In this document: positions 7,308 to 29,905 of the stretch, in pieces
Numbering within the stretch: position 1 is the first letter of the stretch
Layout of the letters: each line of letters begins with the position of its first letter
Virus record (IMG/VR): IMGVR_UViG_3300040807_002188
Coordinates: 1 to 32,527 of that record
Direction: 5' to 3' (one strand)
Length of the DNA stretch: 32,527 bases
From: a virus
The notes under the pieces: generated by a model
What the model saw: only the letters and a program-made list of their open reading frames with translations
Told to the model about the DNA's origin: nothing
The model's database searches: none
Program-made: the position numbers and the translations under genes

Positions 7308-7718
7308 TTATTTTATCGTTGAATATGCTTCAAACCATTCAGGTGTTGAAATAACCTTGTCTGTTGCTCCAGTTCCGTCGATGTTGATTTGAATTAATCC
7401 TCCTTGTTTCTGGATAGATTTCCAAAATTTCTTTAAAACTCCGATTTCTTTATATAAATCTTGATCAAATTCAAGAACTTCAATTCCAGTAATATTTTCT
7501 GCGTCAAAAGGTCTAAGATAAGAATGTCGACCGGATCCAACTGCATGTGTTTTTTCATCTCTACCCATTTCTATTCTTGAGTAGACAACTCCAAAATAAT
7601 TTACATTTGTAAGTTCAGATACCTGAAGAGTCTTAGCTTTTTTATATTTATTTACAAACTCTTCTGCTGAATAACTTGCTTCATTAACAAATTGCTCAAA
7701 TAATTTAACGTGTTTCAT
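7308..7718 (-). CDS. putative packaged protein with capsid-targeting-like N-terminus, unknown function
   Basis: A 136-residue protein starting MKHVKLFEQFVNEAS. This matches the signature shared by other genes in the window and resembles the T4 internal-protein capsid-targeting sequence MKTYQEFIAEA. Cleavage after VNE would leave about 123 residues. The mature part has no motif I recognise; it is a mixed alpha/beta sequence ending near PEWFEAYSTIK. The gene stands alone as a cassette between two identical 33-base terminator hairpins, with a GATATATAA box 30 bases before the ATG. It interrupts the nrdA-gp45 interval, far from the main cluster of similar genes. Confidence 0.8.
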   Translation of the reverse strand: MKHVKLFEQFVNEASYSAEEFVNKYKKAKTLQVSELTNVNYFGVVYSRIEMGRDEKTHAVGSGRHSYLRPFDAENITGIEVLEFDQDLYKEIGVLKKFWKSIQKQGGLIQINIDGTGATDKVISTPEWFEAYSTIK

Positions 7719-11364: not shown

Positions 11365-12765
11365 TTACTTAAATTTTTTTTTAAGTTCATGTGCTTTTTC
11401 ATAGTATTCATATGATGTCTTTTTGTAATCTTTACGTTGAGCGTACAGGTCACTGAGGATCTTTTTCAGGATAGAGTCCTCTTTTGAATAAACTACACCA
11501 TTCTCACAAACAATTTCATCTGGATTCTTTCTACGTTCTTCGATTTGATCTTTTGGTATCATATCAATATAAGCATCCGGAGAGATATTAAATTGTCTCA
11601 TTACTGAAGGATATAGTGATGCAAAGTCAAATGCACTTACACCAGAATAATATCCAACGATTGGTTGTTTTACAAAAGCACCGGCATATTTACCATCTTT
11701 TTTGCCCTCTTCTCGGTTATAATCAACGCCAATTTTACGATTCATTTCAGCCAGTTTACGAGCCATTAGTGCTTCTGTTACCGCAACTGGAGAAGCTGCT
11801 TTATAAAGTGGCATTTGTGTGATTGTTGCAAGAGTCAACAGTACTTCCATTGACTTTAGCTTTTGGTCAATGTAATAAACAAGAATTGAATCGACAACGT
11901 TATAATAAATGTACTTAACAAAATCATTTTCATATAGATCTTGTAAGCCTCCAGTGTATTTGATCTTTGCAACATCAAGAACTTGACCGGCTACAAAATC
12001 AAGTTTGTTTGATTCTTTTACCTTTACGCTTCGATCATACTTATCATAAAGTTGCATGTAATCAAGAATACCCATATGAAGTGGTCGACTATCATTACTA
12101 TCAAGAGATCCTGTAACTGCAACTTCAGTTAAATCAATTTGAAGTCTTTTACATCGATTAACAATATATTGCCAGTCATAATTAATAAAGTTCCATCCTG
12201 TCATCATTGGGAACTTGGGAAGAAACTTGTGTAGGAATGTGTACAGCATATTATACTCATCCTTAAACTTATAATAACTAAACTCCCAATCTTGATCGTA
12301 GTCTTTAAAATGCTTATTAGTGTCCTCTTCAATCTTTTTGATTTTATCAGGGGCCATATCTTCAAGACCTAATACAATTACCTTTCTCTCTGGTGTAACA
12401 ATAGAGAATGAAAGTATTCTTGTTTTAGCATCTTCGGGTTTTGGGAAACCATCAACAATCTCAGTCTCAATATCGACAAAGTATGTACGTGGAACATTAA
12501 AGGCAAAGATTTCTTCACGATCACTTTCAGGTAAAGAATCCATAAAATAGACAAGCGAGAACTTGTTAAATGATCTCGCTCTTTGTCTTTTAATTGGGCG
12601 TTCATCCCAATTCTTGAAGGTATTATCCTTCCACTTATCTTTATCTTCAGTGACTACCCAATTTTCAAATTGACTGACTGGGTATCTTTTAAACGCTACT
12701 TTGCCCTCTTTATTATAGTATGATACAATTACTTCTTGGTCTCTTTGTTCTATATCTAGTAGCAT
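11365..12765 (-). CDS. 43A: DNA polymerase gp43, N-terminal half (exonuclease domain and motif A)
   Basis: Family B polymerase fragment of 466 residues. It holds the 3'-5' exonuclease motifs Exo I (FVDIE, D98 and E100), Exo II (NFINYD, N192 and D197) and Exo III (YNVVD, Y288 and D292). Polymerase motif A (DFASLYPS, from D380) follows. It ends in a basic helix (YEKAHELKKKFK) in the fingers, before motif B, which is encoded at 5243-6445. It must assemble with that product to be active, since catalytic acids come from both. Known split gp43 genes in some T4-like phages break in the same region. The gene lies 24 bases after mgsA, and a hairpin terminator follows. CATATAAAAATA just upstream is a possible promoter core. 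Confidence 0.94.
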   Translation of the reverse strand: MLLDIEQRDQEVIVSYYNKEGKVAFKRYPVSQFENWVVTEDKDKWKDNTFKNWDERPIKRQRARSFNKFSLVYFMDSLPESDREEIFAFNVPRTYFVDIETEIVDGFPKPEDAKTRILSFSIVTPERKVIVLGLEDMAPDKIKKIEEDTNKHFKDYDQDWEFSYYKFKDEYNMLYTFLHKFLPKFPMMTGWNFINYDWQYIVNRCKRLQIDLTEVAVTGSLDSNDSRPLHMGILDYMQLYDKYDRSVKVKESNKLDFVAGQVLDVAKIKYTGGLQDLYENDFVKYIYYNVVDSILVYYIDQKLKSMEVLLTLATITQMPLYKAASPVAVTEALMARKLAEMNRKIGVDYNREEGKKDGKYAGAFVKQPIVGYYSGVSAFDFASLYPSVMRQFNISPDAYIDMIPKDQIEERRKNPDEIVCENGVVYSKEDSILKKILSDLYAQRKDYKKTSYEYYEKAHELKKKFK

Positions 12766-12789: not shown

Positions 12790-13191
12790 TTATATTTGAG
12801 AATCTTGAGATGTTTCCACTCGGTCGTTTAAATATTTAGCAATAATATGAGCTGCTTTATAATTAGTTGCCAAGGGAACATTATGAACGTCACATAATCT
12901 CATCAACATTGAAATATCAACATCATGTGGGTGTTTATCAAGAGGGTCCCTGAAAAAGACTACTGCATCCATTTCTCCACGAGCAACCATTGCTCCAATT
13001 TCCGCATCACCTCCAATAGGACCACTATTAACACACTCTACCTTTTCAACACCAGCATGTAAGATACTGGATCCTGTTGTTCCGGTCGCTACAATCTCTA
13101 CGTCTTTCCGATTAAAAAAATCTAATCTTTTCATCACAAAGGCAACCATGTCTGCCTTTTTACCATCATGTGCTATTAGTGCTATTTTCAT
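12790..13191 (-). CDS. mgsA: methylglyoxal synthase
   Basis: Converts dihydroxyacetone phosphate to methylglyoxal and phosphate, a bypass of lower glycolysis that relieves sugar-phosphate build-up. Aligning to E. coli MgsA, the phosphate-binding and catalytic residues are intact: AHD with H8 (E. coli H19), TGTTG at 36-40, SGPIGGD with D62 (D71), DPL with D82 (D91), PHD with H89 (H98) and D92 (D101). The 133-residue length is slightly below the bacterial enzyme (152). It is the last gene of a three-gene set with a HAD protein and a small unknown, directly before gp43A. It is an auxiliary metabolic gene, probably acquired from a bacterium. Confidence 0.93.
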   Translation of the reverse strand: MKIALIAHDGKKADMVAFVMKRLDFFNRKDVEIVATGTTGSSILHAGVEKVECVNSGPIGGDAEIGAMVARGEMDAVVFFRDPLDKHPHDVDISMLMRLCDVHNVPLATNYKAAHIIAKYLNDRVETSQDSQI

Positions 13192-13201
13192 TTATTGTTT
13201 T

Positions 13202-13486
13202 TTACCATTTTGATTCTCCATTTATACAAACCATTTCGTCTACCACCGTTTCCCTACTATTCTCTTTTGGTAGTTCAGGGCAAAGTACATTTCTCACAAA
13301 GTCTTGTGCCTCTTCAAGAGTCTTGAAAGTGGTTCTATTTTTATATTCAGTATGTTTAATGTCTTTCCAATAAGACCACCATAAGGACTTTTTCCACTCT
13401 TGTATGTAATAATACTCATGTGAGACATTTCCATTCTCGTTAAAGTATTCGTAGTGTTTGATTAAAAAATTTGCTTGTTGTTTCAT
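13202..13486 (-). CDS. unknown protein, 94 aa
   Basis: A 94-residue protein rich in aromatic residues (HYEYF, EYYYIQEW, LWWSYWKDI), with a helical second half (KTLEEAQDFVRNVL). I recognise no family or catalytic motif. There is no signal peptide or membrane segment. Its ATG overlaps the stop of the HAD gene (ATGA) and it ends 10 bases before mgsA, so it is translated with them. Confidence 0.7.
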   Translation of the reverse strand: MKQQANFLIKHYEYFNENGNVSHEYYYIQEWKKSLWWSYWKDIKHTEYKNRTTFKTLEEAQDFVRNVLCPELPKENSRETVVDEMVCINGESKW

Positions 13487-14100
13487 GCTAAAAATTTTAA
13501 GATTTTATCCTTTACTCCACTTTGTTTGATACCTTCATTGTCCCGTGGAGTCCAAACAAAGTTTTCAAGACCCCAATCCTCTCGGTCAAATGGACCATAA
13601 CTACTATTTTCAACATGAACGCCCATATGTAGGTCATCAATAGCAACCCAATGAGTAACCTCTGGGTGGTCTCTTAACCATCTTTTAATCTCAAAGTGGC
13701 GTTGTTGTTCAAGGTCTTCATTACGGTTCCATGGAAACTCACCGTGTGGTTTAATGAATCCTTCTTCAACCCAATCGGTATAGTGAAACCTTTCGGTAAT
13801 GCCAATCGGTCGCTTAATAATACCCTGAGACTCGTAGTAATCACCCAGCTCTTCCAGGTTTGCGTGAAGTCTCCAATCTGATGATACTACTATCTCCGCT
13901 CCTGTTTCCTCTAAGATTGAGTTAAGTACCCCAATGGCCTTCTTATCAAAGTTATCAAAACGCACTTCAACTGGCCCATTGTCACCAAAGCCCTTACGTG
14001 GATTGTCTTCGGTAAAAAAAGACTTTTGCTTCTTGAACCTACTGCCCCAGTTATTTGAGAGGCAAATTACACCGTCATTGTCTAAGAAAATTACTTTCAT
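13483..14100 (-). CDS. HAD-superfamily phosphatase-like protein
   Basis: A 205-residue protein with HAD motifs: motif I FLDNDGVI, with D6 as nucleophile and D8 as acid; motif II VVSSDWR near residue 77; and motif IV IDDL near residue 154. A segment with a conserved-looking histidine-rich HPEVTHWVAIDD precedes it. The order (DxDG, then FD and a helix, then VVSSDWR) is that of HAD domains linked to Swiss-army-knife RNA-repair proteins. Substrate is unknown: a nucleotide, sugar phosphate or nucleic-acid end are all possible. It follows a terminator and opens the HAD / 94 aa / mgsA set. CATATAAG a few bases before the ATG could be a promoter core but is very close. Confidence 0.78.
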   Translation of the reverse strand: MKVIFLDNDGVICLSNNWGSRFKKQKSFFTEDNPRKGFGDNGPVEVRFDNFDKKAIGVLNSILEETGAEIVVSSDWRLHANLEELGDYYESQGIIKRPIGITERFHYTDWVEEGFIKPHGEFPWNRNEDLEQQRHFEIKRWLRDHPEVTHWVAIDDLHMGVHVENSSYGPFDREDWGLENFVWTPRDNEGIKQSGVKDKILKFLA

Positions 14101-14200: not shown

Positions 14201-14560
14201 TTAATCAAGTGTCATTTCAAAGGGTAAATCACTTGGTTCAAAGTAACCTTCGTCTCCGTGTAGACCATACCATTTTCTACCATCTGTAAAGTAGAACCAA
14301 GTACGTGCCACATCATGAACCACTTTAAATGGTCTCTGATATAATTCAAACTTTATTGGTTTAGCAGTACCTCTAGCTAAATACTTTAAAACTGGAACAC
14401 CATCATCCCATGTTTTAGTCGTAGTAGTAGCCTTAATGGTGGCTGATTTACCTTTTAGTTTTGCAGTGTATAATTCTCCGCTAACTTCATCTGCAAGAGT
14501 GATTGCTGCATCAGAATCCATTTCATTAATAAATGATTCAAATAGTTTGATGTGTTTCAT
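14201..14560 (-). CDS. putative packaged protein with capsid-targeting-like N-terminus, unknown function
   Basis: A 119-residue protein starting MKHIKLFESFINEMD, the same signature as neighbouring genes; cleavage after INE would leave about 106 residues. The P1' residue is Met rather than the usual small residue. The mature part looks like a small beta-rich domain (KSATIKATTTTK, PFKVVHDVARTWFYFTDGRKWYGLHGDE). I recognise no catalytic motif. It is the last gene of the block and is followed by a terminator. Confidence 0.8.
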   Translation of the reverse strand: MKHIKLFESFINEMDSDAAITLADEVSGELYTAKLKGKSATIKATTTTKTWDDGVPVLKYLARGTAKPIKFELYQRPFKVVHDVARTWFYFTDGRKWYGLHGDEGYFEPSDLPFEMTLD

Positions 14561-14572
14561 TTTCTTACTCTT

Positions 14573-15193
14573 TTATTTAAGGTCCATTCTAACCTTGAAC
14601 TTTCTATCCTTAATAATAGCATTCATTTCGTTAGAAAGGTGGGCTAAGATTTCCATTTGAGCATTTCTTGCTGCTTCATCAACTGAATCTTCAGCCATGT
14701 CCTCTTTGAATTGATTCCAGTTAACTTTAGTCTCATGATACCATTGACCGAAAGCATCTATCAATTCAGTTGCCGGTACATCAAGACTTGGTAGTTCAAT
14801 ATATTCTTCATTCATTTTAGATTCAATTAAGCTTTCATTTACAAAGCTCTCAAAATTCTTTAGATGTTTCATCTTTTTACGTTTCTTTTTATATTCTTCT
14901 TCTGCATCGCCTTGTCCTGCAGGAACATCACCAGAGCCAGTAGTTGTGGACGTTGGTAATTTAATTGGTCCCATTCCGCTGATATTACTAGGTGTGACAT
15001 TTTCTACAACCTCTGGAAGTCCTTCGTGTTTCGTTTCTGCAAAATCCTTTAATTGTTTCAAGGTCATGCCATCGACTAGGTCTTTTACCTTATCTCGGTA
15101 ATCAGCGTCAACGTCAGAAAGTTGCATATCGCCTTTCTTGACTGCGTATGCAACTCCCATTAATCGTTGTTGTGTTTTACTAGTGCTTGGCAT
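14573..15193 (-). CDS. DUF3008-like domain fused to a capsid-targeting-type segment
   Basis: The first 60 or so residues (MPSTSKTQQRLMGVAYAVKKG to DFAETKHEGLPE) match the small DUF3008-type protein common in T4-like phages, whose function I do not know. A Gly/Pro/Thr-rich linker (about 70-95) and a lysine cluster (YKKKRKK) follow. Then MKHLKNFESFVNES appears at residues 108-121, a full copy of the N-terminal signature seen elsewhere. The remaining 85 residues are acidic and helical. Either this is a true fusion, or an internal start at 14872 also makes a separate packaged protein. No stop separates the two parts. Confidence 0.78.
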   Translation of the reverse strand: MPSTSKTQQRLMGVAYAVKKGDMQLSDVDADYRDKVKDLVDGMTLKQLKDFAETKHEGLPEVVENVTPSNISGMGPIKLPTSTTTGSGDVPAGQGDAEEEYKKKRKKMKHLKNFESFVNESLIESKMNEEYIELPSLDVPATELIDAFGQWYHETKVNWNQFKEDMAEDSVDEAARNAQMEILAHLSNEMNAIIKDRKFKVRMDLK

Positions 15194-15210: not shown

Positions 15211-17727
15211 TTACCAAACGTAATCCATCTTTTCAATTTTAGAGATTCTATCTTTAATCGACTTAGCGTAATTTTTTACTTCTCTAGCGTAGTAATTGGT
15301 AGGATATCCAGCCTCTTCTTCGCGCTTTGCTTGATTTGTATAGTCTACATATCTGTTAAAGTCATCTAGAAGATTTTGCATTGCGTTTGAAGCATCTCTT
15401 AGTTTAATCTCGCGGCCTTTAGGATCCTTTCCGATGATAACATCTCCGTACTTTCCTTTGTTACCAGCAGCTAAACCATCTTTAATTTGTGCAGTAACAA
15501 CATCAATTGCTTTTAGAACTTCTGCATCAACTGGCATTGCAGCAGCTCTGTCTGCTAAAATTATATGGTATCTGTCAAGGTTTTCTTTCTTAAAGTCTTT
15601 ATCATTTTTGAATGCAACTGCTCCTTTTTTAGCAGCAGTTCTTTCATCTCTCTTTGCTTCTGTTGAATATCTTGCTCTTAAAATATCTAAGTCTAGAACA
15701 TATGCTCTATCTGCAAGTTCAGCAACTTTAGATAAACTTGAAATACCTGAACCCCAAGTATCATTAGCTGCGCTTTTTCCAAAACCAGCTCCGTCATTTC
15801 TCTTAGTTTTAGCTAAACTTTTTGTTCTTTCTTTAGACCAACGACCTGACCATTCTGCAGCTAACCATTCGTTTGAACCATCAGTTACTCCAAGTAGAGT
15901 ATTTGCTGGAATCGTTGTAACTCCCCAAGAATTTTTACCAGCATATGGGTTTGGTTTTTCATTTGTTGTAAAGTATAGATAAACTGCCTTGTTTCTCTTT
16001 TCTTTTCTAGCCTGCTCTGGATCCATTTCAATAATATCAACATCTTGAATTTTATCTAGTTGGATTTTAGCCATTTGGTAAAAAGCCTTAGCAAAGTCTT
16101 TAGGCATTGAACCTGCGCCTGTTAAGATTGATTGTAACTTCATTGAGCCAAATGCCTCATTAACTAACTCTTCAGATTCTATAATAGACTCTTTAATACC
16201 TAAAAAGTCTGCGGCTGCTGCTTTTAATTCATCATATGTGTACTTTCCTGAAAGAGCATCATCTAAAATAGTTCCAGACTTTTTACCACCAGTTGCATAA
16301 AGCGATACGTGGTCAAAACCTAACCAGTCTCCACCTCCAAACTCATCCTTTGGATTCAAACCAAGATCGGTTGAAAGTGTAAATGAAAGTGATTTTCTTC
16401 CTAAGAATTGGTCATTGTAACCTAATTTTCCAGCCTTTACATAGGCTGCTGGGTTTACAGCTTCATTAACTGACTCTTTAATACCTAAGAAGTCTGCAGC
16501 AGCTGCTTTTAATTCATCATATGTGTACTTTCCTGAAAGAGCATCACCTAGGATAGTTCCAGTCTTTTTACCACCAGATGCATAAAGTGATACATGGTCA
16601 AAACCTAACCAGTCTCCACCTCCAAACTCGTGTTTTGGGTTTAAGCCAAGATCCATTGAAAGTGTCTTAGAAAGAGATCTTCTTCCTAAAAATTGATCGT
16701 TATAACCTAGTTTACCAGCTTTAATAAAGGCTGATGCATTAACTGCTTCATTTACATTCAATAGTTCATTTTCTACAAATGAATTAAATGATTCATGTAC
16801 GAATGTGTTTTTCATATCTTTATTTTCTTTTTCTTTAATAGTTACTGGGTATGTTTTACCATCAAACTCAAATTCATCTTTACCCTCGTCTTTGGCTTTT
16901 TTGGCAGCGGCAACAAATGCTCTACCCTCTTCGATTGTAGATTCTTCAAGTTTTTTAGCAGCTAGTTTAGGATCCTTTTTAGAAACGTTATCTAAGTAAG
17001 AACCATCTCCCCAAAACATAACAACTTTATCAGTTTCTGTAGTTGAATACATGCCTGGTTTATAAACTGCTATGTTTTTTAGTTTTTTATTAGAAGCTAT
17101 AGTTTTCTTCATGAAGTCGATTGCTTGCGCCTCAGTTCTAAACTTTTTCATTGCACTTACACCATCACTATAAATCACTTCGTAGTTTTCAGTAACCGCT
17201 GATTCTTCAATATATTCAGCTAGATCTGGATCTGCCCAACCATATTCTTCATCAGCTAATACCTTTTCAAGATCTTTTCTCTTACCTTGCATTGTGATAA
17301 CTGGGTGACCTCCACCTGGACCATCCATTTCTTTATTGATAATTTCAACCTTGTGTTTCTTTAAGAATTTAAGAAAGTCTTTATTATCTGGATCCATTGC
17401 ATCCATTTCAACAGTTGCTTCGCAAATTGCTCCTTCATTAACACTAATTGCTGCTAATGCTCTCTTACCAAAACTAGAAAGTGAAATACCGTCTTCTGAT
17501 ACGTTAAAGTACTTTGCATTTCTGCGTGTCCATTTTGAAGTGTCTTTTGAAAACTCTTTAAGAATATTATTAAACTCTTCTTGAGTTATTTTACCATCCT
17601 TAATTGCTTCAAGTATTTTATTTCTAACTCGAGCATTCTTACCAACTTCTACGGCTGGGTGGTTTTCAGTGTATCTTCTCTTAAGGGTAATCTTCTTTCC
17701 CTCATTGATAAAATCTTGAAAATTCAT
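15211..17727 (-). CDS. large putative packaged protein with tandem repeats and several prohead-protease-like sites
   Basis: An 838-residue modular protein. It opens with a short version of the shared signature, MNFQDFINEG. Candidate cut sites of the form V/I-N/T-E recur: VNEG near 97, AVTE at 177-180, VNEA at 325-328, VNEA at 420-423 and VNEA at 522-525. A second signature-like stretch, MKNTFVHESFNSFVENE, starts at 305. A tandem 95-residue duplication spans about 325-514. The module DEFEFDGKTYPVT (284-296) is shared with the gene at 22970-24373. The last 300 residues are a charged region I cannot assign. It may be a scaffold/core-type protein or a polyprotein cut during head maturation; its function is unknown. 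Confidence 0.78.
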   Translation of the reverse strand: MNFQDFINEGKKITLKRRYTENHPAVEVGKNARVRNKILEAIKDGKITQEEFNNILKEFSKDTSKWTRRNAKYFNVSEDGISLSSFGKRALAAISVNEGAICEATVEMDAMDPDNKDFLKFLKKHKVEIINKEMDGPGGGHPVITMQGKRKDLEKVLADEEYGWADPDLAEYIEESAVTENYEVIYSDGVSAMKKFRTEAQAIDFMKKTIASNKKLKNIAVYKPGMYSTTETDKVVMFWGDGSYLDNVSKKDPKLAAKKLEESTIEEGRAFVAAAKKAKDEGKDEFEFDGKTYPVTIKEKENKDMKNTFVHESFNSFVENELLNVNEAVNASAFIKAGKLGYNDQFLGRRSLSKTLSMDLGLNPKHEFGGGDWLGFDHVSLYASGGKKTGTILGDALSGKYTYDELKAAAADFLGIKESVNEAVNPAAYVKAGKLGYNDQFLGRKSLSFTLSTDLGLNPKDEFGGGDWLGFDHVSLYATGGKKSGTILDDALSGKYTYDELKAAAADFLGIKESIIESEELVNEAFGSMKLQSILTGAGSMPKDFAKAFYQMAKIQLDKIQDVDIIEMDPEQARKEKRNKAVYLYFTTNEKPNPYAGKNSWGVTTIPANTLLGVTDGSNEWLAAEWSGRWSKERTKSLAKTKRNDGAGFGKSAANDTWGSGISSLSKVAELADRAYVLDLDILRARYSTEAKRDERTAAKKGAVAFKNDKDFKKENLDRYHIILADRAAAMPVDAEVLKAIDVVTAQIKDGLAAGNKGKYGDVIIGKDPKGREIKLRDASNAMQNLLDDFNRYVDYTNQAKREEEAGYPTNYYAREVKNYAKSIKDRISKIEKMDYVW
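16186..16755 (-). repeat. tandem 285-bp duplication inside the 838-aa gene
   Basis: Two adjacent in-frame copies (16471-16755 and 16186-16470), each encoding 95 residues that begin VNEAVN and include AGKLGYNDQFLGR, GGGDWLGFDHVSLYA and GKYTYDELKAAAADFLGIKES. The copies differ at scattered positions, mostly conservatively, so the duplication is not brand new and both copies appear to be under selection. Each copy begins with a VNEA cleavage-like site. Confidence 0.92.
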
Positions 17728-17749: not shown

Positions 17750-17758
17750 TTATATATC
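17750..17758 (-). promoter_or_regulatory. GATATATAA promoter-like box before the 838-aa gene
   Basis: GATATATAA lies 31 bases before the ATG at 17727, nearly the same spacing as at 7748. It overlaps the end of the upstream gene, encoding its last Asp-Ile and stop, so its conservation could partly reflect coding. Promoter role is inferred. Confidence 0.4.
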
Positions 17759-19012
17759 TTTCTTTAAGAATTGAGAAAAAGTAAGCAGTGTTGATTCTTC
17801 AATCGGACTATCCTGCGTCTTTAACTTTTGATGATTTAAGTATGTTTTAAATGGCATCACGCTTGATTCATTACTCTTTAACATCACTATTCCATCAATT
17901 TTCTCTACAATTGCGTTAATTTGCCCCATTAAATCAGCATTAATAATATCAGTCTCTTTGGTTCGCATTTTTCTAAAGGAACCAAGTGCAATTTGATAGA
18001 GTTCAGAAAGAACTTTATTACTTACAAATTCAATTGTCTTTTCGTTTTTAATAAATCTAGTGTTTAACCCAAATTCTGGACGATCGCTAAAATCAGCAGA
18101 GTTAAAACTAACACCGGCATATTTAGATGCATTTTCATTGACGTATGCATTAAATACATTTGAAATTAATTCAATATATCTTTCATCTGCTTGATCTGAT
18201 TCAAGCTTAATGTTATTAATATCATAATCACTAAAGAATTCTACTAGATCAAGTAACGAAATCTGGTAAGTGTCGCTTGGTTTTCTCTCTTCATTAACAC
18301 TTTTTCTATCTTCGCTAAGTTTAAAATTCTTAACAGTTTTACCGTTGAAGAAGTTAAGAACTAGGCAATCAATTTCACCATCTAAATCTTCATTAAGAGC
18401 AGTTTTACTTAGTGAGCTATTAAAAATGTTATATGCTCTTCTAGTAAAGCTAAGAGATTCATATGCCTTCTTTCTTTCTCCTTCACTCATTTCTAGAAGT
18501 TTAACTAATTCATCCTTTTGGTGAGAATCTAAAACTCCTTTAAAAACAACCTGTGGTCTTTGTACCTCTAATTTATCTGCCCATTCAAAAAGAATCTTTG
18601 GGTCTCTAATTACCTTTTTAATTAGGGTATGATCTGCTGGATTCATTACTTGAATATGCGTCAAGATTAATCCGTTAGTCGGAGTTTGGTCATATTTTAT
18701 ATCAATTGTCTGGTTGTCGGTCATGTAGTCAAAACCAAACTTCCAGTCAAGAGGCATTGTTGACTTTACATCATCGTTAATTGATTCAAAATACTTAATT
18801 GCATTTTCATAGTATTTTGCAAGTGTACGATCAACCTTATCAATTGGTTTCTTTTTACCACTCTTAAAATATAAATAATCGGTTGATGTTTTCTGAACAT
18901 GAAACGAAGAAGCCTGTACTTTTTCAGTAACAACACATGGAGACTTTAACATCTCCATAAATTCTTCTCTATTTGTTGATTCAAAATATGTATGTAAGCT
19001 TTGTAATGCCAT
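17750..19012 (-). CDS. putative ligase-like nucleotidyltransferase (tentative)
   Basis: A 420-residue protein. Near the N-terminus VVTEKVQASSFHV (K31) resembles motif I of RNA ligase-type nucleotidyltransferases, where a Lys-x-Asp-Gly lysine takes AMP; here the Asp-Gly is replaced by Gln-Ala, so activity is uncertain. Possible later motifs are GEIDCLVLNF near residue 219 and EKIDGIVMLK near 378. The N-terminus MALQSLHTYFESTNREE is only a loose match to the capsid-targeting signature, and a better-looking TLLTFSQFLKKDI is at the C-terminus. It sits inside the run of signature-bearing genes, nine bases after the Pol-beta-type enzyme gene. Confidence 0.5.
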   Translation of the reverse strand: MALQSLHTYFESTNREEFMEMLKSPCVVTEKVQASSFHVQKTSTDYLYFKSGKKKPIDKVDRTLAKYYENAIKYFESINDDVKSTMPLDWKFGFDYMTDNQTIDIKYDQTPTNGLILTHIQVMNPADHTLIKKVIRDPKILFEWADKLEVQRPQVVFKGVLDSHQKDELVKLLEMSEGERKKAYESLSFTRRAYNIFNSSLSKTALNEDLDGEIDCLVLNFFNGKTVKNFKLSEDRKSVNEERKPSDTYQISLLDLVEFFSDYDINNIKLESDQADERYIELISNVFNAYVNENASKYAGVSFNSADFSDRPEFGLNTRFIKNEKTIEFVSNKVLSELYQIALGSFRKMRTKETDIINADLMGQINAIVEKIDGIVMLKSNESSVMPFKTYLNHQKLKTQDSPIEESTLLTFSQFLKKDI

Positions 19013-19020
19013 ATCTTTTA

Positions 19021-20148
19021 TTATTTAGCCATGTCTTCTGGTAACGGCAGACCTGACATTCCCAATTTAACTTCAAATTCTTTAAAGATTTCATCCCTTT
19101 TTTCAGGGAACTTAAACATTGCTGAGTTAATTAAGTCTCTTAGACTTTCATAAGTCATTAAATCACTTACCTTTGCACCGGTAAAAAGAAGGTCTGCAAT
19201 CTCTTCCGGTACTCTTGTAATTTCCTTATCGAATTCTTTTAGTAACTTTGCGTTTTTAACTAATCCGCGTTTTCCAACAAATGATTTACGAACTTTAACA
19301 ACTCCTTGATTTAGTCTAACAACAAATGCTTCGTATTCTTTTGTTTCTCCCTCTTCAGTTTGGTCTAAGATTTCAACAAATGACTTACCAATTGCTGCCA
19401 TTAAAAGGATGTTTCTATATGCACCTTTATACTTTGACTCGTCCTTTGTGAAATCTGGAGAATGGTACATAAATCTACTCCAATTAATATCTCTTGATAA
19501 CATTAAGTCAACCTGTCCTACTCCATTATTTGCTTTACCATCAATTGGTGCTGCAATTGATACCTGCTGAAACCCTACAGCCATTGAGGTGTCTAGTCCT
19601 TTTGACTTCAATAAATCATTCATATCGAAAAGAACTTTACCGAGTGAAGTATCTAAATGTCCTGCAATCTTATCTGCTGAAACCGCAATATCAATGTCTC
19701 CACTAGTCTGTCCTGGATTCTTCTTTCCAGCACTACCAATAACTGCAGCATCCTCTCCGATACCATCAATTCCAAGGTGTGGAAATACGTTTTTCTCGAT
19801 CCATGCTAGGGTACCTGCAACCTCATCCTGTTCAAATGGTCTGGACTGTGCGATCGCATTACCACTTTCAACTACGAAAGATTCTGGAAGTGGTTTTTTG
19901 TCAGCATATCTTAATTTGTTGTACCATTGATTAGATAGTATATAGTTAGCTGCAAAGTCTTTTAGCTCTTTTTCACTACCAAATCTTACACCACCCGCTT
20001 CAATGTCGTGACCTTTATAATAGAGATTGTAGTTAGCACCTCTTGAATCCTCTTTAGTCTTAAGGTAAACAATATCGTCGTTGCCAATATATTTGTCAGG
20101 CATTTTGCCTTCACTTATAAACTGCTCAAATAATTTAACGTATCTCAT
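19021..20148 (-). CDS. Pol-beta-type nucleotidyltransferase with capsid-targeting-like N-terminus
   Basis: A 375-residue protein starting MRYVKLFEQFISEGK, a clear signature match with a cleavage-like ISE-G. From about 137 it has the nucleotidyltransferase core: IGSAGKKNPGQTSGDIDIAVS with G138, S139, D151 and D153, and the third acid in VDLMLS (D214). The first 90 residues are a separate domain (DIVYLKTKED, NLYYKGHDIEAGGV) that I cannot assign. The fold transfers NMP to RNA ends, proteins or small molecules; substrate unknown. The ATG at 20148 overlaps the stop of the upstream enzyme gene by one base. If the signature works as in T4, this enzyme would be packaged. Confidence 0.75.
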   Translation of the reverse strand: MRYVKLFEQFISEGKMPDKYIGNDDIVYLKTKEDSRGANYNLYYKGHDIEAGGVRFGSEKELKDFAANYILSNQWYNKLRYADKKPLPESFVVESGNAIAQSRPFEQDEVAGTLAWIEKNVFPHLGIDGIGEDAAVIGSAGKKNPGQTSGDIDIAVSADKIAGHLDTSLGKVLFDMNDLLKSKGLDTSMAVGFQQVSIAAPIDGKANNGVGQVDLMLSRDINWSRFMYHSPDFTKDESKYKGAYRNILLMAAIGKSFVEILDQTEEGETKEYEAFVVRLNQGVVKVRKSFVGKRGLVKNAKLLKEFDKEITRVPEEIADLLFTGAKVSDLMTYESLRDLINSAMFKFPEKRDEIFKEFEVKLGMSGLPLPEDMAK

Positions 20149-20744
20149 TATATGTGTTTTCTTAATTTGTCATAGTATTTATAAAGATATTTCGGCACCA
20201 TCTTTTCGAATGCTTCTCTATCATCATTTGCAAGTGCTTCTCTAGTCTTAGTTCCACTTGGACCACCTTCGGCTCTTGCATCTACCATTTCTAATTTAAA
20301 GTCAGGATGTACTACAGTATCGGTCTTATCACTAGTAACATATTTAATCTGTGGTGTGTATGCCTTGATTCTGTCGCTTCCAGCTCCGACTCCAACAGTC
20401 TCATAACCCTGTTCTCTTAAGAATCTAACAAACCAAGGAATAACTGTTCTACCATAACTATTCGGGTAGATAAAGAAATCTGCGATCTCTTTTTCATTTT
20501 TAGCAACCTCTTGTCCAATTTGAAGTAAAAGGCTTTCTGGGAATGGAGACTCTTCACGCTTTGAAACTATTTGCATAGCAACAACTGGCTTACCGAAGAT
20601 TTTGGCAGCATTCTTAAGCGCTGCGATATGTCCATTATGGAATGGCTGAAATCTTCCAGGCATTACTACAACTTCAGTACCCTCAATTGGTTGAGTTACG
20701 TCAGCCTCGTTAATGAATTGTTCAAATAGTTTAATATGTTTCAT
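20148..20744 (-). CDS. cytidylyltransferase / NMN-adenylyltransferase-like enzyme with capsid-targeting-like N-terminus
   Basis: A 198-residue protein. Residues 1-14 are MKHIKLFEQFINEA, the best match in the window to the T4 capsid-targeting sequence. The enzyme fold starts at VVVMPGRFQPFHNGH (HxGH-type motif, H36 and H39), and the second nucleotide-binding motif is SGTKTRE at 163-169, comparable to ISGTxxR of nucleotidyltransferases. The architecture fits NadM/NMNAT or related NMP transferases; NAD+ synthesis is possible but the substrate cannot be fixed. Its stop overlaps the start of the Pol-beta-type enzyme gene, so the two enzymes are translationally coupled. ATATAAATG about 40 bases upstream is a possible late-type promoter core. 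Confidence 0.83.
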   Translation of the reverse strand: MKHIKLFEQFINEADVTQPIEGTEVVVMPGRFQPFHNGHIAALKNAAKIFGKPVVAMQIVSKREESPFPESLLLQIGQEVAKNEKEIADFFIYPNSYGRTVIPWFVRFLREQGYETVGVGAGSDRIKAYTPQIKYVTSDKTDTVVHPDFKLEMVDARAEGGPSGTKTREALANDDREAFEKMVPKYLYKYYDKLRKHI

Positions 20745-20782
20745 AATTAAAAGTTTGGGATTCCCATTATTTTTAGCTTCAT

Positions 20783-21211
20783 TTATATTTTATCTAAAAC
20801 CTTAACATTGGGTTCTTCGTAGGCAATGGATGTTGCTGGGTATTTTTTAAACAATTCTTTAAATATTTTTAATGATTTTTCAAATGATTTTTTTGTTAAT
20901 TCAACTCCTAACTGTTCTAATCCTGTATCAAATACATTAGCTATAGATAAATGATAAGTTCTACCCGTTCTCTGTGCTTGTTTGATGAGTGCATTTTGTT
21001 TTGATTTAATAGAATCGTACGCATTCTCAGCAATTTCTTCTAGAGACATGTCCCATGTTATATCTTCATCTGAGTACTGTATTTTTGAAATAGATTCAAC
21101 TACAGCTAAATTCTCATCTAATAGAGAATCTCTATATGTGTAATAATCTTTTCTAAGTTCACTTGAGATAGACTCATTAATAAACTGTTCAAATAGTCTT
21201 ACGTGTTTCAT
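20783..21211 (-). CDS. putative packaged protein with capsid-targeting-like N-terminus, unknown function
   Basis: A 142-residue protein starting MKHVRLFEQFINESIS, with a cleavage-like INE-S. The rest is charged and largely helical (LRKDYYTYRDSLLDE, LEEIAENAYDSIKSKQNALIKQ, LTKKSFEKSLKIFKELFKKY). No catalytic motif or membrane segment is visible. It is the second of three consecutive short signature-bearing genes. Confidence 0.8.
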   Translation of the reverse strand: MKHVRLFEQFINESISSELRKDYYTYRDSLLDENLAVVESISKIQYSDEDITWDMSLEEIAENAYDSIKSKQNALIKQAQRTGRTYHLSIANVFDTGLEQLGVELTKKSFEKSLKIFKELFKKYPATSIAYEEPNVKVLDKI

Positions 21212-21217
21212 AATTAA

Positions 21218-21661
21218 TTAATCTATTGTTCCAGAGGTTCTACCTCTTTTTTTATAAAAATCTGTGATTGATTTTGCGTATGAACCAAATCCTTTGCTCC
21301 AACCGTCTACTAGTTCTGACATTTGGTCTTCAGTTAACCAGGTTGGATTAGAATTACCATCGAAAATATACACCTCAACACCAGCTGTCCAGCTTCTAGT
21401 TTCTCTAAATCCTAATTTACTAAGAATTTGTACTGGCATATGGTGACCTGCAACTTGCGCAACACCAAAAGGTTTGTTTGATTTTGGATCATAGTCGAAA
21501 TGAATCACGTCATATTGACTACCACCTTCTAATTGGTAATATTTACCATTCATTGAAGCTCCTCCATTAGGTGGAGTTAATTTACCTGACTTTTCAAGTG
21601 CAGCAAATAACTTTGATATTGCTTCATTAATATATTGCTCGAATAGTTTTATGTGTTTCAT
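21218..21661 (-). CDS. putative packaged protein with capsid-targeting-like N-terminus, unknown function
   Basis: A 147-residue protein starting MKHIKLFEQYINEAIS, with a cleavage-like INE-A. The mature part contains GKYYQLEGGSQYDVIHFDYD, then PFGVAQVAGHHMPVQILSKL, then GVEVYIFDG, suggesting a small alpha/beta domain; no family is recognised. Unlike many genes here it has a clear Shine-Dalgarno, AAGGAG, five bases before the ATG. CATATAAAAG upstream may be a promoter core. Confidence 0.8.
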   Translation of the reverse strand: MKHIKLFEQYINEAISKLFAALEKSGKLTPPNGGASMNGKYYQLEGGSQYDVIHFDYDPKSNKPFGVAQVAGHHMPVQILSKLGFRETRSWTAGVEVYIFDGNSNPTWLTEDQMSELVDGWSKGFGSYAKSITDFYKKRGRTSGTID

Positions 21662-21669
21662 TTTACTCC

Positions 21670-22968
21670 TTATCTTTTATATGCTAAGATACTTCTAATT
21701 TGATGAATTGGTGCAAAAATACCAGTGTACTTATAAACTTTGCCTTTATACACAAAGGTTATACCTTCGGTTGGTACAATGTTTTCTAATCCACCTACTG
21801 CAGCAACTCTACTTAACTCATGTTCTAATTTTTCAACATCAGTAGCATCACCATTCTTTTTGATTGTATTAATTGTATCTTCAATCTCTTTTCTCATCTG
21901 TTCTCCAGCCTGTGTTGGATTTGCTGACAAGAAAGCCTCCATATGCTTCATCATCTCTGTCCCAACCTCAAGGAAAAGATTTTCAAGAGGAGCATAGATC
22001 TTTTTCTTAATCATTTTACCCTCTTTTTTCTCAAGATCAGTGTACCACTTAGCGTTATCTCCAAGATCCGCCTTAATTTGACGAGCATTATAACTCTTGT
22101 CAATGTCTCCAAGTCTTCTTGCTAAACCTTCAACAGACTCTTCTGGAATGGTAACTCCATCCCTTTTAGCTAATTCCTGTACCATGTTTTTAGCTGCACC
22201 CATTACAAAGTCCTGAACTGTTGAGTCCAGTGTAATTCCAGCATCTTGCATGATCCCTTTTAGTTTGTCATTATAATACTTTGCTCTTGCTTTAGTATTC
22301 TTAAATGGCTTAATAGGAATGTCCTGTGGTCCACGAACATAGAACATTTCTTGAGCGGCTGCATTTGCATCAGCAATCATCCTTCCAAGATCACGCCCGG
22401 CTTGTTTATCCTCTCCAACTACATTGCCGTCCTCATCATATTCTACAATACCATGGAAGACTAATAGGTCTTGGCCATAAGGAACTGTGTTTTGCGTAAC
22501 TGGCGTCATAATCTCAACGCTTGCGAATTTCTTACCCTCGTCAAACATCCTTTCTTTATCCGCCGGAGAAAGTGCTCCAATTGAATTTTGAAGATCGCGC
22601 ATTGCTGCATTATATGCAATTTCAATGTCTCCTCTGTCTTTAAATTTTGCGGCAAGATCAGCTGCTGTCATTGCTTCTGCTCCGGCATTTTTAAGATGGC
22701 TCTTATTTCTGGCAGCAATTAATTGACCATTCTTCCATGAAATTGAAAGTTGCTGACCATCTGTCTTTTCTTGCACGAAGTTTTCTGGGCCAAATGCACC
22801 TTCAACTGTAGAGTCAATCATCTCCTTAACGTCCTTCATTGTTAGACCTAGGTCCTCGAATGGATGTGTTAAGTGACCATATGCTCCACCTTCGTTAATA
22901 GATTCGAGCCCAGTATCCCTGAGCTCTCTTTCTGTTAAAAATTGTTCGTATGTAAATAGTTTTTTCAT
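21670..22968 (-). CDS. ligase-like nucleotidyltransferase with capsid-targeting-like N-terminus
   Basis: A 432-residue protein starting MKKLFTYEQFLTERE, with further INE-G at 24-27. VQEKTDGQQLSISW holds a K68-x-D70-G71 motif I of covalent nucleotidyltransferases (RNA/DNA ligases and capping enzymes). KFASVEIMTP (E152) can be motif III-like, and EGITFVYKGKVYKYTG near the C-terminus resembles motif IV. GHLTHPFEDLGL before motif I recalls a family of uncharacterised proteins in marine T4-like phages that have a Lys-x-Asp-Gly core and an adjacent His-Met-x-His-x-Glu-Asp element. It probably forms a lysine-AMP intermediate; the acceptor is unknown. It starts one base after the stop of the 467-aa gene. 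Confidence 0.68.
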   Translation of the reverse strand: MKKLFTYEQFLTERELRDTGLESINEGGAYGHLTHPFEDLGLTMKDVKEMIDSTVEGAFGPENFVQEKTDGQQLSISWKNGQLIAARNKSHLKNAGAEAMTAADLAAKFKDRGDIEIAYNAAMRDLQNSIGALSPADKERMFDEGKKFASVEIMTPVTQNTVPYGQDLLVFHGIVEYDEDGNVVGEDKQAGRDLGRMIADANAAAQEMFYVRGPQDIPIKPFKNTKARAKYYNDKLKGIMQDAGITLDSTVQDFVMGAAKNMVQELAKRDGVTIPEESVEGLARRLGDIDKSYNARQIKADLGDNAKWYTDLEKKEGKMIKKKIYAPLENLFLEVGTEMMKHMEAFLSANPTQAGEQMRKEIEDTINTIKKNGDATDVEKLEHELSRVAAVGGLENIVPTEGITFVYKGKVYKYTGIFAPIHQIRSILAYKR

Positions 22969-22969
22969 C

Positions 22970-24373
22970 TTATCCTAAAGAAGATTGTAGCATTCCAACA
23001 CATGCTCCGTAGTCATCTCCGCATTTATCTAAAATACCGTCGACTACCTCCTGTGCTTTTGCTTCATCAAAGTCTTCTCCAAATGCTTTTTGAAGTACGG
23101 TGAATGCATATTCTTTAAATTCATCAGCTGACTTGATTTCAGCTTCAGTAACCGCTGATTCTCCAGCAAATTCTTCTGCATTCTCTTTGTCATCCTTATC
23201 TACTCCGGTAACTTTGTACTTTTTACCATCAACTTCAAATTCATCTTCTCCGTCTGCAATTGCCTTAGCTCTTGCTGCTCCAAATTCATTACCTTCAAGG
23301 ATTCTAGCCTCCATAACTTCTCTACTTTCAAATTGAGCATGGAAATCAGCTACTAACTGCGCTGCCATTTTTTCATGTCCAATAGAATCTAGGTAAAGTG
23401 CAGTTCCTTCAACGATTCCAAGACCTCCCCATTCAGCAGCATTTGAAATTCTAGAAGCCTCATCATAAAGAGCATCTTGAATTCTCTTTGCTGAAACTTT
23501 AGCTTCAATATTTCCAAGTCCGCTTACCTTTGTTACGATTGGAGATAGTGCACCTTTAATATGTTTCATAATTGCATTTCCTTCTCTAGAGAAGTTAGCG
23601 TCTTCCATCGCAGCTTGGAAAAGAACTTTAATTGCTCCAAGTTGCATATTTTTACCATCTACTAAACTTGTGTATGTCTTACCAAATAGATGATTATATT
23701 GAGTCACTACTTTCTTAGCCGTTCTTCTGCTTTCAATTGGAAAAGAACCAACAGCTTCATTAATCTCAACTGATTCAAAAGCTGGCTTTAAATCACTATC
23801 TTCATAAGTGTCTAACATGTACCATTCTCCGTCGCGCTCATCATATAGATAAATGTACTCTGCCCAAGAGTCTTTAGCATTGCCAATAAAGTTTCTAATG
23901 CTACCAACATTACCGGTTAGGGGTTCATCTCCATCGTTGTAATAATTAATCTTCTTTGGGTCAGCTTCTAGTCCAGATCCAGCTCCATTTTGTAAAACTA
24001 CATCAACATTCTTTCTTTTTGAACCGCTGTAGCCCTTTTGAATTAAGGGTAGCATATTTTCTGGATAACCATCATAGTGCATGTAAACTGCTTCGATGTC
24101 TCCTTTTCTATTAATTTTACCAAAGAAAGAACGTGTTCCCTCTGTTACTAATGAAAGCGACTCATTTAGATCAGTACCTTCAAGTCTTGAAAAGAACTCT
24201 CCTCTTTTTTCTTCGTCTAGTTCAGATACTTTCGTAACTCCATATTCTGCTAATAGATCTTTAAAACTACGTGCAGTTTCTTCTCTAGCTTCTGTTTGTT
24301 TTGCTACTTCTTCTGCTGCTAATTTTTCAGCTTTTAATTTTGTGAAGTCTTCAAATGATTGTAATCCAGCCAT
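22970..24373 (-). CDS. putative packaged or head-core protein, 467 aa, with several protease-like sites
   Basis: The N-terminus MAGLQSFEDFTKLKAEK is a loose version of the shared signature, followed by a charged helix like a scaffold. Cleavage-like sites recur: LNE-S (69-72), VTE-G (76-79), INE-A (204-207), ILE-G (358-361) and VTE-A (408-411). A compact segment (about 92-190) includes AVYMHYDGYPENM and DSWAEYIYLYDERDGEWYML. The module DEFEVDGKKYKVT (377-389) is shared with the 838-aa protein, as is the phrase ESAVTE. Function unknown. It is the first gene of the accessory block, preceded by a GATATATAA box. Confidence 0.75.
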   Translation of the reverse strand: MAGLQSFEDFTKLKAEKLAAEEVAKQTEAREETARSFKDLLAEYGVTKVSELDEEKRGEFFSRLEGTDLNESLSLVTEGTRSFFGKINRKGDIEAVYMHYDGYPENMLPLIQKGYSGSKRKNVDVVLQNGAGSGLEADPKKINYYNDGDEPLTGNVGSIRNFIGNAKDSWAEYIYLYDERDGEWYMLDTYEDSDLKPAFESVEINEAVGSFPIESRRTAKKVVTQYNHLFGKTYTSLVDGKNMQLGAIKVLFQAAMEDANFSREGNAIMKHIKGALSPIVTKVSGLGNIEAKVSAKRIQDALYDEASRISNAAEWGGLGIVEGTALYLDSIGHEKMAAQLVADFHAQFESREVMEARILEGNEFGAARAKAIADGEDEFEVDGKKYKVTGVDKDDKENAEEFAGESAVTEAEIKSADEFKEYAFTVLQKAFGEDFDEAKAQEVVDGILDKCGDDYGACVGMLQSSLG

Positions 24374-28871: not shown

Positions 28872-29525
28872 TTACTTGAGCGGCGGCTTAGAAATCATAG
28901 CTGCTAGGAAGAAAGCATCGACTAGGTCGTCAATAGGTTTAGGGATCTTTTTCCCAAAGTCTTGACCCTTGATCCACTCATAAAAAGGACTCTTCTCGAG
29001 ATTTTCGTCCCCTATTCCATTATTAAAAAAGACTTCAAAGAGCTGAGACTTATTCATGTTTCCCTTCCCAGCAAACTTCTTTATCGTGGTTGGAGCAGCA
29101 GTCTGTAGATCTTCTGGTTTCAGGGTCTTTAAGAGCTTTAACTTGAGAATAGCGGCTCCGGCTGCCATATCAATCATGTTATTAGTTCCCATCTTTGACC
29201 CATAACTGGTCCCTTCAAATGCAATTGTAAATGAGTCTCCTACAAAAGATTCCTGTAAGACAAGATTAATTATATCGTCTGCCATTCGATCGTATCTTTT
29301 AATCTTTGCAAGCTCTGCACTTGAGAACTCTTCATCATTACTAAAATCTGGCTGACTAACAAGAGTTACGTCCTTTAGGAGACCTATCTCTTCTTGGAGT
29401 TTCTGGTCATTCTTGGTCCCAGTCCCTGGTTTCATGTATGCTATAAAATGATACTTTTTACTTTTATCATTATAGATACAAATTCCTGGAGAATTAAGCG
29501 AAAAATCGACTGCTAAGTAATTCAT
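28872..29525 (-). CDS. RuvC-like Holliday-junction resolvase (RNase H fold)
   Basis: A 217-residue protein with the RuvC acidic tetrad in order: D7 (LAVDFSL), E104 (IAFEGTS), then D200 and D203 (DDLVDAFFLA), the last pair with the same spacing as D138/D141 in E. coli RuvC. TTIKKFAGKGNMNK near 146-159 is the basic segment typical of RuvC before the last acids. It would resolve branched DNA before packaging. T4 uses the unrelated gp49 for this, so a RuvC-type enzyme here may replace or supplement it. It shares one base with the stop of the upstream 126-aa gene. Confidence 0.8.
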   Translation of the reverse strand: MNYLAVDFSLNSPGICIYNDKSKKYHFIAYMKPGTGTKNDQKLQEEIGLLKDVTLVSQPDFSNDEEFSSAELAKIKRYDRMADDIINLVLQESFVGDSFTIAFEGTSYGSKMGTNNMIDMAAGAAILKLKLLKTLKPEDLQTAAPTTIKKFAGKGNMNKSQLFEVFFNNGIGDENLEKSPFYEWIKGQDFGKKIPKPIDDLVDAFFLAAMISKPPLK

Positions 29526-29905
29526 TATACTTTTTTACCAAGTGCAGATCCTAAAGCGGCACCTACAAGTCTTGAAGTTAATAAATCATATAGAATTCCT
29601 TTTTGAATACCGAGAACTTTAGCAATCATTTTACCAACCGTCTTACCAAGGGCAAATCCAGCTAAACCACCAAAAATAGAACCTAATAGACCTTCATTAG
29701 TTACCTCTTCATTAAATCTATTTATGTCTAATTCTCCGTGTTCGTTTGAATATTCTAACATGAATTGTTCAAGAGCAGCGTCTACTTTTTCTTCTAACTC
29801 ATCGGTCCATTCTTCCTGTAGGCCCTCTGTCAGGATTCTTAGATCCTCTTCAGTTACCATTTGTTCAGAAAGGTACTCGTTAAATGTCTTAATTGTATTG
29901 CTCAT
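29525..29905 (-). CDS. putative packaged glycine-zipper protein
   Basis: A 126-residue protein. Its N-terminus MSNTIKTFNEYLSEQ is a variant of the capsid-targeting signature, and RILTE-G at about 24-28 is a cleavage-like site. The middle is acidic. From about residue 71 (NEGLLGSIFGGLAGFALGKTVGKMIAKVLG) to the end (LVGAALGSALGKKV) are two hydrophobic, Gly/Ala-zipper segments of the kind that insert in membranes or pack as helices. This looks like a pre-protein whose membrane-active part is released. It lies between tail and recombination genes. Confidence 0.75.
   Translation of the reverse strand: MSNTIKTFNEYLSEQMVTEEDLRILTEGLQEEWTDELEEKVDAALEQFMLEYSNEHGELDINRFNEEVTNEGLLGSIFGGLAGFALGKTVGKMIAKVLGIQKGILYDLLTSRLVGAALGSALGKKV

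Follow-up and report, generated by a model that had tools for sequence, protein, structure and literature searches.

The 32.5-kb virus fragment IMGVR_UViG_3300040807_002188 (32,527 nucleotides; the whole stretch is called "the window" below) comes from the replication region of a T4-like phage and encodes four nucleotidyl-transfer enzymes, here named LIG1, HIGH, POLB, and LIG2, within a block of about ten genes. All four open reading frames (ORFs) are intact and lie on the minus strand. As judged from their sequences, LIG1, HIGH, and POLB carry at their N-termini, and LIG2 at its C-terminus, the pattern of a T4-type capsid-targeting sequence (CTS). Because tags are present on all four enzymes, the phage may, as infection begins, deliver a kit for the repair or modification of RNA along with its DNA. 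We tentatively propose, at a chance somewhat short of even, that the four form a cooperating tagged set that is injected with the DNA and repairs RNA (tRNA) ends.

By its motifs, LIG1 is a putative covalent nucleotidyltransferase of the RNA ligase superfamily. Motifs I, Ia, III, IV, and V occur in order in an alignment of homologues with identities down to 28 to 34%, and E67, K68, D70, and G71 (in EKTDG, residues 67-71), R87, E152, E401, G402, and K413 are invariant in 45-48 homologues. In loci L103 (6378-8162) and L105 (7437-9221), an apparent naturally split intein lies exactly between EK and TDG, its N-half beginning with CLSPGT and its C-half ending with VHN before TDG; inteins favour catalytic sites. 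Pfam has no family for LIG1, and searches of PDB sequences with the LIG1 profile and with the LIG2 profile yielded nothing meaningful. When the AlphaFold2 model of LIG1 (pLDDT 85.8) was compared with the PDB by Foldseek, ranks 1-23 were all ligases, nearly all of them RNA ligases, with a best E-value of 8.5e-3 and none below 1e-3, and VIA gave a Z of 8.4 to the Naegleria RNA ligase. These coherent but weak matches weakly support a predicted RNA-ligase fold. Among predicted viral proteins, the model strongly matches phage cytidyltransferase-like fusion proteins (E 4e-38).

LIG2 is clearly predicted to fold like T4 RNA ligase 2 (Rnl2). Its AlphaFold2 model (pLDDT 87.0), in which the RNA-ligase fold occupies residues 1-238, matches T4 Rnl2 with a Foldseek E-value of 8.3e-7 and a VIA Z of 11.5 (root-mean-square deviation 3.8, 186 residues aligned), and one member of the family matches PF09414 (8.8e-5). 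Motif I reads EKVQAS (K31, codon 18920-18922); in the family alignment E30 is invariant, K31 is kept in at least 90%, K231 is conserved, and the acidic residues of motifs III and IV vary. Profile comparison of LIG1 with LIG2 detected no kinship (probability 0.7).

HIGH is predicted to be NMNAT-like over both signatures, GRFQPxHxGH and SxTxxR. It matches PF01467 (1.8e-7) and phrog_3041 (3e-11), and its alignment with the archaeal NMNAT MJ0541 (E 1.9e-14) includes both GRFQPFHNGH and SGTKTR; GRFxP..H and R168 are invariant in its homologues. POLB, the ORF of which shares one base with that of HIGH (ATAATG), is tentatively assigned to the Pol-beta superfamily by its GS...DxD...D triad. G138, S139, D151, D153, and D214 were invariant in one homologue alignment, and over 50 diverse homologues GS...SGDIDI...QVDLM is nearly invariant, with S139 kept in at least 90%. 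Matches to known families are faint: 0.021 to the Pol-beta palm PF14792, in three of the 50 members, 0.091 to PF18765, and 0.93 to Mnt in the PDB. The RlaP model found no match among the 50 members at E 0.1 (HMMER alone), and a PDB sequence search with POLB gave nothing significant.

The original prediction had named an NMNAT-like cytidylyltransferase, a Pol-beta-type enzyme with GS...DID, a ligase-like enzyme with EKTDG, a second, weaker ligase-like protein with EKVQAS, and a one-base overlap of the two central enzymes. All of these are present, but "weaker" does not describe LIG2, the model of which matches T4 Rnl2 better than that of LIG1 matches any ligase; against RNA-ligase folds the result is clear for LIG2 and, for LIG1, led by RNA ligases but weak.

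We defined a tag as an aromatic residue at i and i+3, an aliphatic residue at i+4, and Glu at i+6, near a terminus, and a protease-like site as [ILV]xE before A, G, or S. FEQFINE (F-x-x-F-I-x-E), as found here, has the same spacing as the key residues of the T4 CTS, in which residues 4 and 7 serve targeting and residues 8 and 10 processing (PMC9026906). The tag core is present in 73 of 82 LIG1 N-termini (15.7 expected), and tags are also enriched at the N-termini of POLB and HIGH. In relatives of LIG1 the tag is preserved, as is an [LI]xE site before GG, with a variable linker between them, and residues 21-30 of the LIG1 model have pLDDT below 50. LIG2 lacks an N-terminal tag, its N-terminus being folded in the model, and ends instead in a site followed by LLTFSQFLKK, within a stretch (residues 400-420) of pLDDT below 50. 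This C-terminal tag is kept across the family and also terminates LIG2-HIGH fusions; the [FY]xx[FY] core occurs in 68 of 104 distinct C-termini, compared with 11.2 expected and a maximum of 22 in 1000 shuffles. In relatives of POLB the tag stops directly before SGNAI, and the untagged homologues of Lak and Phosso start there, with (M)SGMAI and (M)GGAAF. The POLB of the window has an 80-residue module between its tag and its enzyme part, with a second site at the border of the module. The six non-enzyme proteins of the block contain 28 [ILV]xE[AGS] sites, compared with 7.0 expected (0 of 500 shuffles), whereas the rest of the window has 14 against 17.5 expected; the four enzymes have six (4.6 expected), mainly at the borders of tags and domains.

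The nearest relative (166 kb, in pieces; enzymes about 84-96% identical to those of the window) has N-terminal tags in 24 of 171 gene calls, compared with 2.6 expected (maximum 6). Most of these genes encode small proteins of unknown function, and one, which adjoins the protease and capsid genes, encodes a 134-residue acidic, core-like protein. The families of the gp21-type protease and the gp23-type capsid, PF03420 and PF07068, are found in 15 of 17 longer contigs of relatives, the window itself being a fragment. Mass spectrometry of S-SM1 virions detected the putative cytidylyltransferase T4-GC190 (PMC3037559). In our profile search this protein, SSM1_190, is a HIGH homologue (independent E-value 2.6e-21), and its start, MKKFSAFLNE before A, comprises a tag and a site. 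A cytidylyltransferase was also detected in S-CREM2 virions, where the authors propose a virion NMNAT acting early (PMC10665884).

These comparisons and the S-SM1 virion homologue lend good support to packaging in the manner of the T4 internal proteins, which for the present phage we infer. The capsid-targeting-like starts expected of three enzymes are borne out, and the fourth enzyme proved to be tagged at its other end. The enzymes do not, as had been predicted, dominate the candidate packaged set: they account for 4 of the 11 tagged window proteins, and most tagged genes of the nearest relative are small unknowns.

The enzymes also travel together. Among the loci compared, all but five of which were fetched by LIG2, HIGH, or POLB queries (LIG1 queries were used as well), 136 contain LIG1, 143 LIG2, and 149 HIGH, and nearly all have the three together, although these counts are non-independent because loci overlap and several stem from one contig. 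The gene order is a relative of the 467-residue protein, LIG1, either HIGH-POLB-LIG2 or LIG2-HIGH, a relative of the 838-residue protein, and the DUF3008 protein. HIGH, POLB, and LIG2 are separate in the window clade, whereas most other relatives have LIG2-HIGH as a single protein and no POLB, which by this gene-content comparison is an optional partner of the cassette. HIGH-LIG1 fusions occur in Microcystis phage Mel-JY01, in LR756508, and in several contigs of metagenome-assembled genomes, and a LIG1-HIGH fusion was seen once. That HIGH fuses with each of the two ligase-like proteins is good evidence that the enzymes work together.

More distant counterparts exist as well. In Menderavirus, overlapping genes encode a homologue of POLB (hhalign E 1.1e-6), a KMDG-containing protein, and HIGH; Phosso combines an EKLDG protein with POLB; and in cyanophage S-SM1 the DUF6267 (KWDG) gene overlaps that of the HIGH protein. 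By motif alone, the KMDG, EKLDG, and KWDG proteins may be ligase-like. Profile comparison detected no kinship of DUF6267 with LIG1 or of the Phosso EKLDG protein with LIG2, and the cytidylyltransferase of S-SM1 and S-SM2 was ruled out as containing LIG1, the HIGH domain alone being shared. The neighbours of distant POLB genes (115 proteins, Pfam) are mixed, including thymidylate synthase (6), cytidylyltransferase (5), 2H (2), and RNA ligase (2). It should be mentioned that the cyanophage DUF6267 protein at L294 2496-3470, whose gene overlaps that of the virion cytidylyltransferase, has a KWDG motif and a ligase-like look, and that the Menderavirus protein encoded between POLB and the KMDG protein (L164 4300-5244) has a PD-(D/E)xK-like pattern; SSM2_160 of S-SM2 looks similar.

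How might such a set work? The tags would draw LIG1, HIGH, and POLB (N-terminal) and LIG2 (C-terminal) into the prohead core during head assembly; after cleavage by a gp21-type protease at [ILV]xE before A, G, or S, the enzymes in their mature form would be injected alongside the DNA. In the cell, their most likely targets would be the ends of RNAs, probably of tRNAs, of the host or of the phage, that defence ribonucleases have cleaved. The 3' ends would be cleaned by a phosphatase of the Swiss Army Knife (SAK) RNA-repair family, which is encoded nearby and made in the cell, POLB would restore lost nucleotides, and LIG1 (and LIG2, if active) would seal via a lysine-nucleoside monophosphate (NMP) intermediate. 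HIGH, the odd member, would supply or recycle a dinucleotide cofactor or activate the RNA end; it may make nicotinamide adenine dinucleotide (NAD), or recycle nicotinamide mononucleotide (NMN) from a NAD-using ligase. RNA repair is favoured because of the RNA-ligase folds, the POLB partner, the SAK gene nearby, and the 25 tRNA genes of the nearest relative. Action on RNA, in particular, is favoured by both fold searches, in which RNA ligases outrank DNA ligases, and by the RNA-repair family of the phosphatase. In jumbo-phage RNA repair, RlaP Pol-beta enzymes likewise occur with RNA ligases and SAK-HAD (PMC7824862).

Several observations weigh against this proposal. The mass spectrometry support concerns S-SM1 and a HIGH homologue only, outside the window clade, and the T4 late-promoter octamer, with no excess over chance (5 against 4.1 expected), gives no indication of the timing of expression. 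POLB falls below the cut-off of every Pfam family, including RlaP and the Pol-beta palm. The motifs of LIG2 differ from the canonical ligase set (no KxDG), and LIG2 may be inactive. No role in RNA repair is established for an NMNAT-like domain, and the window showed neither a polynucleotide kinase nor RtcB. The SAK family (PF18143) is present in 5 of 16 longer contigs, and it is chiefly in the window clade that it adjoins the cassette. We consider doubtful a more elaborate version, in which a complete packaged RNA-repair kit with N- and C-terminal tags, made up of both RNA ligases, a nucleotide-adding POLB, and the NMNAT-like partner, is injected to pre-empt host anticodon nucleases, and in which the NAD-using ligase of a LIG2-HIGH fusion is recharged by its own NMNAT, the released NMN being turned back into NAD.

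An unlikely alternative is a packaged set that modifies metabolites or the host: HIGH would make NAD or another dinucleotide at entry, countering NAD depletion or capping or modifying host RNA, and the ligase-like enzymes would transfer NMP to RNA or protein. The NMNAT match across both signature motifs, the fusion of HIGH to both ligase-like proteins, and the early-acting virion NMNAT proposed for S-CREM2 (PMC10665884) are all in keeping with it, but the window showed neither a NadV-type nor a Nudix partner, the ligase folds suggest RNA sealing, and nothing indicates protein targets. NMP transfer to RNA, NAD-type metabolites, or host proteins had been predicted as the common theme; nucleotidyl transfer is supported, RNA is the favoured substrate, NAD-type metabolites are possible via HIGH, and for host proteins no evidence was found.

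Repair of nicks and gaps in the incoming genome, with POLB filling and the ligases sealing, is distinctly improbable. For packaged Pol X and ligase in other viruses DNA repair has been proposed, the closest, sub-threshold Pfam match of POLB is the Pol-beta palm, the block sits among replication genes, and packaged enzymes would meet phage DNA first; against this, both ligase models rank DNA ligases below RNA ligases, and the adjoining phosphatase is of an RNA-repair family. Least probable of all is that the enzymes act in the infected cell alone, the tag being a domain for some other complex and the protease-like sites incidental, since the block's location in the replication region, the tagging of many small proteins distant from head genes, and the origin of the virion proteomics outside this clade are set against the site enrichment, the tag spacing of the T4 CTS, the tagged HIGH homologue in virions, the tagged protein adjoining the protease and capsid genes, and the untagged homologues that start at the predicted cut.

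Table 1. Enzymes, tags, and neighbouring genes of the block, in window positions
Feature	Position	Strand	Detail
LIG1, 432 residues, predicted RNA-ligase-fold covalent nucleotidyltransferase	21670..22968	-	putative nucleophile K68, codon 22765-22767
LIG1 N-terminal tag, MKKLFTYEQFLTE	22930..22968	-	second candidate site E26 before GGAYGH, codon 22891-22893
HIGH, 198 residues, predicted NMNAT-like HIGH-superfamily nucleotidyltransferase	20148..20744	-	
HIGH N-terminal tag, MKHIKLFEQFINE before A	20706..20744	-	
POLB, 375 residues, tag, extra module of about 80 residues, and putative Pol-beta-type nucleotidyltransferase	19021..20148	-	
POLB N-terminal tag, MRYVKLFEQFISE before G	20110..20148	-	second site VVE before SGNAI, E94 codon 19867-19869
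POLB nucleotidyltransferase part, from residue 95	19024-19866	-	
LIG2, 420 residues, predicted Rnl2-like RNA-ligase fold and helical C-domain	17750..19012	-	
LIG2 C-terminal tag, site IEE before S, then LLTFSQFLKKDI	17753..17803	-	
Small tagged protein, 142 residues, MKHVRLFEQFINE before S	20783..21211	-	
Small tagged protein, 147 residues, MKHIKLFEQYINE before A	21218..21661	-	
Small tagged protein, 119 residues, MKHIKLFESFINE	14201..14560	-	
Multi-module protein, 838 residues, start MNFQDFINE	15211..17727	-	14 protease-like sites
467-residue protein, start MAGLQSFEDF	22970..24373	-	7 protease-like sites
HAD phosphatase, SAK RNA-repair family, untagged	13483..14100	-	PF18143 2.1e-22

The block lies between the DNA polymerase and UvsW, and the majority of its proteins begin with MKHIKLFEQFINE or a variant of it (Table 1). 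The replication genes of the window encode an SbcD-type nuclease, a gp41-type helicase, UvsX, DNA polymerase (two ORFs), NrdA, NrdB, UvsW, primase, SSB, and a RuvC-like resolvase. The two ORFs of the gp43-type polymerase (5243-6445 and 11365-12765) have nrdA and nrdB between them, and a protein with a methylglyoxal synthase-like (MGS-like) domain is encoded at 12790-13191 (PF02142, 6.4e-15). The 838-residue protein, with repeated domains and protease-like sites between them, resembles a packaged polyprotein, and the DUF3008 protein (14573-15193) has an internal tag, MKHLKNFESFVNES, near residue 109, either between two modules or at an internal start. Two more small tagged proteins are encoded outside the block, at 7308-7718 and 29525-29905. 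Gene starts in the window mostly have A-rich upstream sequences and lack a clear Shine-Dalgarno site, a pattern also seen in phages of Bacteroidota. In the nearest relative, tagged minus-strand genes also encode a second Pol-beta-like protein (L283:18061-19119), an HD-domain protein (L290:4900-5772; PF01966, 1.2e-7), and a protein with HELEH (L289:6143-6859).

Each part of the cassette has a known counterpart. As in the internal head proteins and Alt of T4, there is a short N-terminal tag with equal spacing of key residues and a cut after Glu, and relatives have a gp21-type protease and a gp23-type capsid; here, however, the tags would carry a nucleotidyl-transfer cassette in place of an ADP-ribosyltransferase or small internal proteins, one family is tagged C-terminally, and extra modules stand between tag and enzyme. 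The T4-GC190 system of cyanophages S-SM1 and S-SM2, with its DUF6267 neighbour, shares the HIGH homologue, the form of the tag, presence in virions (S-SM1), and an overlapping KWDG neighbour (S-SM1), whereas homologues of LIG1, LIG2, and POLB were not detected there by profile search. With T4 RNA ligase 2, the Naegleria RNA ligase, and Trl1, the two ligase-like proteins have in common the order of nucleotidyltransferase motifs and the fold, predicted clearly for LIG2 and weakly for LIG1, but LIG1 has a large helical insert, EKxQAS replaces the KxDG-type motif I in LIG2, and both are tagged. The RlaP (RNA-ligase-associated Pol-beta) systems of jumbo phages encode a Pol-beta-type enzyme with RNA ligases and a SAK-HAD phosphatase, as here, whereas our HMMER search gave POLB no RlaP model match, an NMNAT-like partner is added, and the enzymes are head-tagged. 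Polyvalent packaged phage proteins are similarly multi-domain, packaged, and injected at entry; here the enzymes and modules are separate, with protease sites between, and the parts consulted of the description of polyvalent proteins do not mention packaged RNA ligases.

Alt and virion RNA polymerases are among the phage enzymes known to be packaged; we found no report of a packaged RNA ligase in the open literature searched. The combination, the head-targeted ligase set, and the conserved C-terminal tag appear to be new within the material searched. The cassette has been overlooked because it turns up often in environmental contigs and hardly ever in cultured phages, and cyanophage virions offer a ready test system. 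A C-terminal capsid-targeting tag, if true, would extend the T4 rule and help in telling from sequence which proteins uncultured T4-like phages package. A packaged RNA-ligase set, if true, would allow RNA to be repaired or modified before any phage protein is made, which bears on how phages survive fast tRNA-cutting defences.

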